64,000 nucleotides of DNA from positions 62,001 to 126,000 of the forward strand of contig JAEUWI010000002.1 in the NCBI GenBank assembly GCA_016791475.1, written 5' to 3'. Under the pieces are notes generated by a model. That model did no database searches. It was not told where the DNA came from and saw nothing but the letters and a program-made list of their open reading frames with translations. The DNA comes from Candidatus Hydrogenedentota bacterium (GTDB lineage Bacteria; Hydrogenedentota; Hydrogenedentia; Hydrogenedentales; JAEUWI01). Shown in pieces: positions 59,040-62,846 of the stretch (position 1 is its first letter; every line of letters begins with the position of its first letter). The translations under genes were made by a program, and so were the position numbers.

Positions 59040-59376
59040 CGAATCATCTTCCTTCGCAAAAGTGCGGCGGGGATCACAGCTATAAGTCAAGGCAGAATGC
59101 GCACTTCCGAAGAAAAAGGCTGAAATCCGCAACGGGGCGAACGAATAGCGCGGAAAGAACGCAGTGAGGGCTATATGATCGCCTTTTAGGGCGAGGAGGT
59201 GCAAATTTTGGGTGGGATTCCTGCGTTCAGTTATACGCATTCACCCCGAACGCCGCCGAGACCAAAGCGAAAAGCGATTCGCACTGCTGCGATAGGCCGA
59301 AAAATCGGTTCGCGTAGATTTTTATTGACAAGCGATGTTAAGCTTGCCAAACTTATCAGGTCAGGACGGGAAGACA
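59040..59376. other. Divergent intergenic region between ileS and the accessory island
   Basis: 337 bases. A TTGACA at 59325-59330 could be the -35 box of the island, but no good -10 follows at 17 bases. No T-box motif is seen for ileS. No gene recognised. Confidence 0.4.
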
Positions 59377-59889
59377 ATGAATCGACTACAACTAGCAACA
59401 CTATTATCCTGGGCTGGAGAGCCCGGAATCCAAGGGCGCAAGCGCTTGCAGAAGGTGGTCTATTTCCTGCAGCAAGCAGGCTGTCCGCTCGGATGCGCGT
59501 ACACGCTCCATCACTTTGGCCCGTATTCGCGCGACGTCGCGGATGCCTGCGACGAGATGGTGGCTGCCCGTCTGATTGATGAAACCGTTAGTCTTCAACA
59601 ATGTGGCCCACAGTATGGCTACAAACTCAAGCCCCAGACGCAAGAGTTTCTAAATCAGGCCAACGATCAGTCCATGGAGTCTTATAGGACACTTGGAGCC
59701 GACTTGATCTCACAGGAAATCTGGCCATTGGAACTTGGTTCGACGATCCACTTTTTTTTCACGCAGACGGGAGACTGGACCGCCGCACTCGAAAAGGCCT
59801 GTGAATTTAAGAAAGTGCGAACCAGCGACGAGGGTAGCCAAAAAGCGCTGGCGTTGGCAAAGCGGGTGCGGGCGCAATCGGAAAATTAG
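59377..59889 (+). CDS. YwgA-like protein
   Basis: 170 residues. The N-terminal part RKRLQKVVYFLQQAGCPLG and YTLHHFGPYSRDVADACDEM has the LQK-YF and GPYS signatures of the YwgA family, a winged-helix-like fold distantly reminiscent of the SocA/Panacea antitoxin domain. In Bacillus, ywgA neighbours ywfO, an HD-domain phosphohydrolase gene; here too an HD gene follows, 15 bases downstream. Likely a partner or regulator of the HD enzyme. ATG 59377 gives the family-like start; ATG 59335 is possible. Confidence 0.7.
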   Translation: MNRLQLATLLSWAGEPGIQGRKRLQKVVYFLQQAGCPLGCAYTLHHFGPYSRDVADACDEMVAARLIDETVSLQQCGPQYGYKLKPQTQEFLNQANDQSMESYRTLGADLISQEIWPLELGSTIHFFFTQTGDWTAALEKACEFKKVRTSDEGSQKALALAKRVRAQSEN

Positions 59890-59904
59890 CGACGGAGGGG
59901 CAGC

Positions 59905-61254
59905 ATGGCGGCCAAGCTTTTTCGCGACCCGCTTTATAATTACATAGCGATTGATCGAAAGAAGGATGGTTGGTTGATCGATCTCATCAACTGTCCAGAA
60001 GTCCAGCGGCTCAGGCGCATTCATCAACTGGGCGTAAGCAACATCACCTATCCGGGCGCGGATCACACGCGCTTCGCCCACAGTCTGGGCGTCACCCACC
60101 TGATGCAATTGGTTTTGGATCACCTGATCCGGCAGAGCGACAAGGAAAGCATCAGAAAAGCGCGCCAGGCACTGCTCGCCACCGCGTTGTTGCACGATGT
60201 GGGGCACGGCCCATTTTCTCACCTGTTCGAGACATGTCTGAACATCAACCATGAGCAATGGTCGATTGCAATCATCCGGGACGAAAATTCCAAAGTCAAT
60301 CAGGTCTTGAAGGGGCAGGACACCTACCTTCCCAACCATGTCGTCGACCTGATTGATTCCAACGATACGAAACATCCCGAATGGCAGCGCGCTTTGATGT
60401 CGAGCCAGCTTGATGTGGATCGAATGGACTACCTGCGCAGAGACAGTTTGTTCACTGGTGCGGGATACGGGCACTTTGACTGGCACCGACTTCTGACCAC
60501 GGTGGAGTTCTACCATGGCGAAACCGACCTGGTCTGGCCGGAGAAGTCGGCGCTGGCGATTGAAGAGTACATATTCGCCCGGTACTACATGTATCAAAAT
60601 GTTTACCTGCACAAGACGACCCGTGGCTTTGAGCAATTGTTACAGGCGATGTGGACCAGAGCCAATCAACTCAGGCTCGACGGGATACACATCGACGCGA
60701 ATCCGGTACTTGACCGTTTCTGGAAAGTCGACAACCCCGAGCCGGGCACGCTCCCAATCGAAGACTACCTCAGATTGGAGGAGTTCACGGTGCTGGAGCA
60801 GATCCAGCGCTGGAAAGGGCATTCCGACAAGTCGCTGGCGGATTGCGCAACGCGATTTCTTGACCGAGATGGCTTCGCCATGGTGGAGCCACCCCCGCCC
60901 CCAAATCCGCTCAAAGCTGATGATTTCGGTGAGTGGGAACCTGAAATGCACAAACTCTTGCGTCGAAATGGGTATGAAGAGCCGACGATGTATTGTCTGA
61001 AGGATTGTGTGAAAGGCAAATATCGCCAGCCCTACCGGGAGGAGAAGGAGGCAGAAAACCAGTCGGCGGTCAATACAATCCGGGTAATTGTTGATGGCGA
61101 GCCTGTGGCGATTGGCGAGCATCTACCCCGACTCCGCGCAGTTATCAAGCCACCCGAGGATCGTATTCTCTACTACGTCCCGAAAGAAATCCGCGAGGAC
61201 GCAGTGAATTTGAGTCGACGCTTGAAAGAGTCCGCAAACCATTCATCCGTGTGA
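59905..61254 (+). CDS. HD-domain phosphohydrolase (dNTPase/SAMHD1-like)
   Basis: 449 residues of the YwfO/EF1143-like HD family, relatives of SAMHD1 and bacterial dGTPases. Metal-site motifs are in order: HTRFAHSLGVTHL (H59), LLHDVGHGPFSH (H97, D98) and SQLDVDRMDYLRRDS (D170). The N-terminal RDPLYNYIAIDRKKDGWLID and CPEVQRLRRIHQLG are typical. Such enzymes hydrolyse dNTPs to nucleosides and triphosphate, and some deplete dNTPs against phages. GGAGGGG precedes the ATG; the gene is coupled closely to the YwgA-like gene and followed after 86 bases by an ATPase. Confidence 0.85.
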   Translation: MAAKLFRDPLYNYIAIDRKKDGWLIDLINCPEVQRLRRIHQLGVSNITYPGADHTRFAHSLGVTHLMQLVLDHLIRQSDKESIRKARQALLATALLHDVGHGPFSHLFETCLNINHEQWSIAIIRDENSKVNQVLKGQDTYLPNHVVDLIDSNDTKHPEWQRALMSSQLDVDRMDYLRRDSLFTGAGYGHFDWHRLLTTVEFYHGETDLVWPEKSALAIEEYIFARYYMYQNVYLHKTTRGFEQLLQAMWTRANQLRLDGIHIDANPVLDRFWKVDNPEPGTLPIEDYLRLEEFTVLEQIQRWKGHSDKSLADCATRFLDRDGFAMVEPPPPPNPLKADDFGEWEPEMHKLLRRNGYEEPTMYCLKDCVKGKYRQPYREEKEAENQSAVNTIRVIVDGEPVAIGEHLPRLRAVIKPPEDRILYYVPKEIREDAVNLSRRLKESANHSSV

Positions 61255-61340
61255 ACAAGATTATGAATGAATCCATTTAAAGGCCTCTCCAAACAAAAAA
61301 GGCTGTTGCATGTGACCGGAACTAGCGGGGTTGTGTAGGA

Positions 61341-62846
61341 ATGATTCAGATTACTGATAAAGATATCGAGGGCACTACTGGAACAGGCGATTGCCTCAAC
61401 CTTCCCACTGCGGGCGAGTATCATGTCAATGGCCTAAGCAAGATAAACATCGTTATGGGCAAGAATGGATGTGGCAAGAGCACGCTCCTTCGCAATATCG
61501 AGGATAGTCTACAAACCGGCACGGAGTACATCGGCAGGACTAGATATATCACTCCGGAACGAGGGGGGGCCCTAATATATGAGGCAGGTATAGAACAGAA
61601 TATAGTCGGCAACGACAATTGGCTTCAAGGCCAGCGCAGAAGGAATCAAACGATCAATTTCCGACAGCAAAGCGTTGCCCAATACCGTAAGCTTGAACTA
61701 CTTGTGCTTCGCGAAATTGAAAAGCCTAAACGAAGCGATACGGAATACACTTTTGATGCCTATATAAAAGAAATAAATACGCTCTTAGATAATATCGAAA
61801 TTCGACGCCATCACCAGTCAAGCTTCAAGATATTCGAAAAGAACACAGAAAACGAACTCCCTCCGGATAGGATAAGCAGTGGTGAGAGCGAACTTATATC
61901 ACTCGGGATAGAATGTTTGATATTCAGCAAAGAGCTCGATGAGTCTAAGCATAACTTGTTGCTCTTGGACGAGCCCGATGTTCACCTTCACCCCGATCTC
62001 CAGGTTCGCCTAATGCAGTTTTTGCATAAGCTGGTATCTGCAAGCTCGTTTCGAGTGGTTGTTGCTACTCACAGTACAGCAATTTTGGGCGCGATTGAGA
62101 GTCTTAGCCACACTCGGATTGTGTTCCTCACATTTGGCCAAAAGGAAATTTTTTTCAAGTCAATATCGGCAATCTACAAAAAGATCCTACCGGTATTTGG
62201 TGCACATCCCCTTTCAAACGTGTTTAATCAGGCACCATTGCTGCTGCTGGAAGGAGAGGATGATGAGCGGATCTGGCAGCAAGTAGTTCGTTCGGCGAAT
62301 GGTCGAATAAGTTTATACCCATGTTCTGTCGATGGGTTGGGAGATATGAACAAGTTTGAAACTGAAGCGATTACGGTTATGCGCTCAGTCTATGACAATG
62401 CACGTGCCTTCTCGCTACGGGACATGGATCTGACGAGTGATGAGATCCAGTCTATGGCCCCAATGGTTAGGATGCGGTTGTCCTGTAGAGCAGCGGAAAA
62501 TCTGATGCTGACTAACGAGTCTTTACAATCGATGGGGTTGTCATGGGAGGATTTGAAATCAAGAATTGAGCATTGGCTACAAACTAACCGTGAGCACGTT
62601 CACTTTGGCGTCATGGAGAAGTTCAAGTTAGGAGGATTTGATAGAAGAACCTTTGATCTTAAAGTCATTCGAAACGACTTGATGGGTGTCATGGGCAGTT
62701 GTAAGCCATGGGAAATCGTAGTTGGCAAAGTTATCGCAAAAGTGGAATGGGATGGAACAACTACGTTTGACCAAGAAGGAACTATTCTTGCGTATCTTGG
62801 CGAGAAAGTTGTAAAGCATCTGTTGCCCAACAAGTCCGATGCGTGA
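61341..62846 (+). CDS. OLD-like ABC ATPase with C-terminal TOPRIM-like domain
   Basis: 501 residues. ABC/SMC-type ATPase with Walker A GKNGCGKS (residues 40-47), signature-like RISSGESELISLG, Walker B LLLLDEPDVHLHPDLQ and switch histidine in VVVATHSTAIL. After ~300, a second module has EGEDDERIW (E about 304) and a later FSLRDMD (D361, D363), which fits a TOPRIM acidic triad as in OLD-family nucleases (Gabija GajA relatives), although it could be a degenerate version. The gene is visibly more AT-rich than its surroundings with AT-rich codons, a sign of transfer. Confidence 0.75.
   Translation: MIQITDKDIEGTTGTGDCLNLPTAGEYHVNGLSKINIVMGKNGCGKSTLLRNIEDSLQTGTEYIGRTRYITPERGGALIYEAGIEQNIVGNDNWLQGQRRRNQTINFRQQSVAQYRKLELLVLREIEKPKRSDTEYTFDAYIKEINTLLDNIEIRRHHQSSFKIFEKNTENELPPDRISSGESELISLGIECLIFSKELDESKHNLLLLDEPDVHLHPDLQVRLMQFLHKLVSASSFRVVVATHSTAILGAIESLSHTRIVFLTFGQKEIFFKSISAIYKKILPVFGAHPLSNVFNQAPLLLLEGEDDERIWQQVVRSANGRISLYPCSVDGLGDMNKFETEAITVMRSVYDNARAFSLRDMDLTSDEIQSMAPMVRMRLSCRAAENLMLTNESLQSMGLSWEDLKSRIEHWLQTNREHVHFGVMEKFKLGGFDRRTFDLKVIRNDLMGVMGSCKPWEIVVGKVIAKVEWDGTTTFDQEGTILAYLGEKVVKHLLPNKSDA

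Follow-up and report, generated by a model that had tools for sequence, protein, structure and literature searches.

A mobile YwgA-like/HD gene pair in a Hydrogenedentota genome, a possible toxin-antitoxin-like nucleotide-depletion module

Gene content and composition of the locus

The window (the whole stretch of 64 000 nucleotides that was analysed, from an assembly of 7.7 Mb in 529 contigs) carries three open reading frames on the plus strand, with ileS on their left and an unrelated minus-strand gene on their right. Gene set, coordinates and flanks are as described in the first-pass annotation, which had been made from the sequence alone. The name YwgA is assumed here for the small partner gene. 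The features of the locus are as follows:

59377-59889, plus strand: YwgA-like gene (170 aa); predicted DarG C-terminal-domain fold, Panacea-related
59905-61254, plus strand: HD gene (449 aa); EF1143/SAMHD1-like, predicted dNTP triphosphohydrolase
61341-62846, plus strand: ATPase gene (501 aa); AAA ATPase with a C-terminal TOPRIM-like (possibly DUF4435-type) region, OLD/AriAB-like
59312-61267, plus strand: two-gene mobile unit, delimited by DNA homology to a congener (G001) and including ~65 bp upstream of the YwgA-like gene

The GC and GC3 values are 0.63 and 0.83 both for ileS and for the gene to the right of the ATPase gene, 0.54 and 0.60 for the YwgA-like gene, 0.54 and 0.66 for the HD gene, and 0.45 and 0.48 for the ATPase gene, which lies 86 bp from the HD gene. 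On composition, therefore, the three-gene stretch appears foreign to its surroundings (GC 0.45-0.54 versus ~0.63); the pair and the ATPase gene also differ from each other. Direct repeats searched for at the borders of the two-gene unit gave chance-level matches only, and a scan for consensus promoters returned a count no higher than in shuffled sequences; TTGACA-like elements are present upstream of several copies of the pair. A 26-nt imperfect inverted repeat within the HD gene (arms 60509-60534 and 60862-60887) is probably due to chance.

Association and spread of the YwgA-like and HD genes

Fourteen planctomycete-type HD loci were taken from GTDB genomes, and a YwgA homologue adjoins HD in all 13 that could be inspected (in the remaining one, L007, the contig starts inside HD). 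The spacing between the two genes ranges from -23 to +25 bp in the ten loci measured. A YwgA-like gene is also found next to HD in Priestia and in two divergent loci of the same phylum as the window, L017 and L019 (partner profile search), as well as in three prophage-like contigs of a virus collection, where HD identity is ~30%. The gene order is reversed in the prophage-like loci L056 and L057, with HD first and the genes overlapping by 4 nt; the L056 pair comes immediately after an integrase-like gene, the L057 pair amid tail-region genes (ORFs judged by reading). Distances of the two pair proteins are correlated (r = 0.83; Mantel test, 0 of 5000 permutations), and mapping of the partner label on the HD tree requires 3 changes versus 9.3 in shuffles, on a tree whose branches are long and whose deep nodes are weak. 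HD relatives that lack YwgA occur in Listeria, Staphylococcus and Bacteroides, adjoining argS, pyrF or lpxD. Taken together, the YwgA-like and HD genes almost certainly form one unit.

Several other arrangements of HD genes were observed. At L019:644-1935 (genome G035), the divergent HD gene beside the YwgA-like gene is itself split over two frames, possibly a broken copy. Two alphaproteobacterial plasmids (L049:2628-6413 and L046:267-3886) have consecutive genes for an HD relative, a radical SAM protein, a 3'-5' exonuclease and an AAA protein; the surroundings in L049 include a gene for a Shedu-domain protein and one for 7-cyano-7-deazaguanine synthase. Virus-collection contigs with eukaryote-like genes, for which a giant-virus origin is only a guess, encode SAMHD1-like HD proteins that have no YwgA partner (L059:4926-6191 and L062:4914-6338).

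Within the phylum sample (68 genomes, all from one order), the high-identity pair is present in two genomes, at different sites. In the congener G001 it is 83% identical and located beside uvrB, ~100 kb from ileS. The DNA homology between the two copies (79.4% over 1959 alignment columns, window positions 59312-61267) stops 13 bp past the HD stop codon, leaving the ATPase gene outside. Identity is as high as 76-80% for copies from MAGs of planctomycetes and verrucomicrobia. Of 392 genomes drawn evenly around G081, the source of one planctomycete locus, 3 gave a match with an E-value of 1e-60 or lower. Phage GenBank records contained no match to the YwgA-like gene or the ATPase gene. The low count in the phylum, the differing sites, the high identity in other phyla, the limits of the shared block and the sparse recovery from the even draw together point to a pair that is rare, patchily distributed and mobile. 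The first-pass annotation had named vertical conservation of the pair without the ATPase as one outcome that would count against its reading; this fits only in part, since the pair is without the ATPase everywhere else but its distribution in this phylum is not vertical.

In three planctomycete loci (L008:11317-13737, L009:2522-5923 and L010:11641-14997), the pair is closely followed by a gene for a PLD-SNF2 helicase, and the two of these helicases that were scanned match the PADLOC 'HKD+Snf2' model (4e-70 and 2e-63); helicase and pair possibly constitute an extended system. An HmaA-like C-terminus (L017) and HsdM/HsdS genes (L006) were found upstream of the pair, and a PDC-S31 match near it (L015). 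Several planctomycete copies are beside housekeeping genes, for example pnp and groEL (named by reading ORFs). The defence-type neighbours come from a by-eye selection of flanking genes and have no background rate to be set against; they are suggestive and do not prove enrichment.

Predicted properties of the two proteins

The HD protein matches the Pfam families HD (3.7e-9) and HD_assoc_2 (7.1e-6). Its top solved relative is PDB 2o6i (7e-58), which we take to be Enterococcus EF1143; further bacterial HD phosphohydrolases and SAMHD1 rank next. The blocks HSLGV, HDVGHGPFSH, HE and SSQLDVDRMDYL are present in the alignment, and H59, H97, D98, H101, H106, H116, E117 and D170 are invariant in 15 homologues, including those from Priestia and Staphylococcus; we assume that they correspond to their SAMHD1 counterparts as matched here. 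Alignment to 2o6i shows the family positions for metal binding and catalysis to be filled. An HD phosphohydrolase of the dNTPase type had been proposed for this gene, and the proper placement and invariance of H97/D98, together with the 2o6i match, bear this out. Scores against the NCBIfam anti-phage dGTPase models NF041026 and NF003701 (25.1 and 26.7 bits) are far under the cut-offs (400 and 383), so the protein appears SAMHD1-like and not Dgt-type. It is thus expected, judging from sequence, to be an EF1143/SAMHD1-like dNTP triphosphohydrolase. It shares with the EF1143/SAMHD1 type (2o6i and SAMHD1) the HD domain over residues 3-323 and the set of catalytic residues, but differs in its divergent C-terminal third and in having a YwgA-like partner.

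The assignment of the small protein to the YwgA family holds in that it is related (25% identity) to the gene adjoining HD in Priestia. It has no Pfam family match. DarG models match it only with the C-terminal part of the model (PADLOC 2e-10, NCBIfam 2e-8). Its AlphaFold model (pLDDT 94.2) has just two PDB matches below E 0.001, both chains of 7yk3, the M. tuberculosis DarT-DarG complex (best E 1.3e-5; TM-scores 0.68 and 0.63); distant PadR-type structures are matched as well, with low TM-scores. The DarG likeness appears to lie mainly in the modelled fold, sequence support in the PDB search being weak. Profile comparison with SocA/Panacea antitoxin sequences gave a probability of 98.9%, a somewhat favourable setting because the archaeal SocA/Panacea sequences were first retrieved with the YwgA-like protein as query; comparison with one strong Pfam Panacea member alone gave 97.0%. 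The gathering threshold of SocA_Panacea (PF13274) was reached neither by the protein, nor by its 14 homologues, nor by the L017 and L019 partners. A basic segment, GRKRLQK, is strongly conserved.

The predicted fold is that of the DarG domain solved bound to DarT (7yk3), but the pair differs from DarTG in lacking a macrodomain and in having an HD hydrolase in the place of DarT. With the Panacea (PanA-PanT) systems (PMC8832971) it shares a two-gene layout of variable order and a profile relationship of the small protein, which nevertheless falls under the Pfam SocA_Panacea cut-off. Panacea proteins neutralise many toxins (PMC8832971); the paper's main text mentions no HD toxin among them.

Possible role of the pair and place of the ATPase gene

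dNTPases are known effectors against phage, and enzymes that destroy dNTPs are toxic and need a brake. The best explanation of the locus, to which we give about an even chance, is that the pair is a horizontally transferred, toxin-antitoxin-like nucleotide-depletion module and that the ATPase is separate from it. In this reading the effector role would fall to the HD protein, whose hydrolysis of dNTPs would starve replicating phage (and host) DNA. The YwgA-like protein would bind the HD protein directly and keep it inactive, and infection would lift this block and release the enzyme. The ATPase gene, encoding a single-gene OLD/AriAB-like ATPase-nuclease, would have been acquired separately and would lie downstream by chance. 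Among the parts of this reading, a defence role of the pair is somewhat favoured, and the case for the YwgA-like partner as a direct neutraliser is evenly balanced. More tentatively, and with rather less than even confidence, the pair may represent an undescribed, cross-phylum type of anti-phage toxin-antitoxin system that occurs on prophages as well as on free islands; in it, a protein of the DarG-CTD/Panacea superfamily would bind a SAMHD1-like dNTPase directly and keep it inactive.

The main rival, which we consider unlikely but of some weight, is that the pair serves dNTP-pool homeostasis, as an allosteric dNTPase of the EF1143 type plus its regulatory subunit, and is not primarily anti-phage. 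Such a device would suit the Priestia pair, which sits among apparently resident genes, the planctomycete copies that adjoin housekeeping genes, and the Listeria, Staphylococcus and Bacteroides relatives by argS, pyrF and lpxD; YwgA is not required by these members of the HD family. It accords less well with the patchy occurrence in the phylum and the different sites in congeners, with the near-equal identity to copies from other phyla, with carriage by prophages, and with the low GC and defence-type neighbours.

Still less probable is that the YwgA-like protein acts as a winged-helix regulator, controlling transcription of the operon instead of neutralising the HD protein directly. The PadR-type structural matches, the conserved GRKRLQK segment and the position of the YwgA-like gene, first and behind its own upstream region, would be compatible with such a regulator. 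However, among the structural matches the DarG domain bound to DarT leads all others by orders of magnitude and the TM-scores of the PadR-type matches are low, the order flips in prophages so that the partner is downstream of HD and overlaps it, and by eye there is no conserved operator-like element upstream.

The ATPase protein matches AAA_15 (7e-18, 65.8 bits) and AAA_21 (1.5e-16), and its C-terminal part has a LEGEDDE...SLRDxD pattern in which E304, D361 and D363 are invariant in four homologues. Pfam recognises no TOPRIM family in it, and the structure model is poor (pLDDT 45). The description in the first-pass annotation, an OLD-like ATPase with a possible TOPRIM triad, stands for the ATPase, and the acidic 'EGEDDE...RDxD' pattern is there as a motif only. 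Like OLD class 1 and fused AriAB (PARIS) proteins, it would combine an N-terminal ABC-type ATPase with a C-terminal TOPRIM-like motif in a single gene; it differs from them in being under the DUF4435 threshold and in adjoining an unrelated pair. The published two-gene rule for PARIS demands AAA_15/AAA_21 together with DUF4435 at no less than 27 bits, fusions being recognised there by custom profiles (PMC9122126). Three relatives of the ATPase match DUF4435 (the AriB domain family) weakly, at 16 bits, and the window ATPase does not match it; membership of PARIS as a fused AriAB was accordingly rejected.

Homologues of the ATPase were absent from the other 67 phylum genomes, from the 14 pair loci and from the 14 genomes holding those loci, in a search that had the source genome as positive control. 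Its distant relatives (33-44% identity) are solitary: one at 44% (L039) is beside an integrase-like gene, others are in prophage-like contigs, and 27 of 5426 E. coli genomes have one with yfgI and guaA on either side. In E. coli UPEC132 (L041:8060-10804), a full-length homologue is accompanied by a transposase remnant and a response-regulator gene. On these sequence comparisons the ATPase is very likely a separate OLD/AriAB-like gene, independent of the pair, an argument drawn from relatives of 33-44% identity because no close homologue was found. Co-occurrence of the three genes, proposed as a check in the first-pass annotation, is seen for YwgA and HD and, in the genomes searched, in no other pair-carrying genome for the ATPase. 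The first-pass proposal of a single composite abortive-infection system made up of the three genes has in its favour their common strand, their shared low GC and the 86 bp between HD and ATPase, but it is very improbable given the absence of the ATPase from all other pair loci searched, their genomes and the phylum relatives, its position outside the block shared with G001, its different GC3 and its solitary relatives. What survives of that earlier interpretation, on independent evidence, is the pairing of a dNTPase with a partner, its mobility and a possible defence role.

Two described systems come close to the proposed nucleotide-depletion pair. In Clover, the CloA dGTPase is restrained by a nucleotide signal from the CloB nucleotidyltransferase (PMC12265719); a dNTPase-type effector is likewise held back by the product of a linked gene, but the partner here is a small DarG-CTD/Panacea-like protein, for which Pfam, PADLOC and NCBIfam give no nucleotidyltransferase match and whose predicted fold is different. 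AvcID combines a deoxycytidylate deaminase with an RNA antitoxin in phage-activated nucleotide depletion (PMC10511110); it resembles the pair in that a nucleotide-depleting enzyme is held by a linked antitoxin, and differs in the enzyme and in the antitoxin being RNA. The pair is not named in the Pfam, PADLOC or NCBIfam family libraries, and searches of the open-access literature returned no relevant paper on YwgA function or a defence role for it, and none describing the pairing of an HD dNTPase with an antitoxin in phage defence.

If the YwgA-like protein is indeed a brake, it would add a protein-based restraint of bacterial SAMHD1-type enzymes and would link the DarG/Panacea antitoxin superfamily to nucleotide-depletion immunity. 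It would also offer a possible explanation for why YwgA genes adjoin HD genes.
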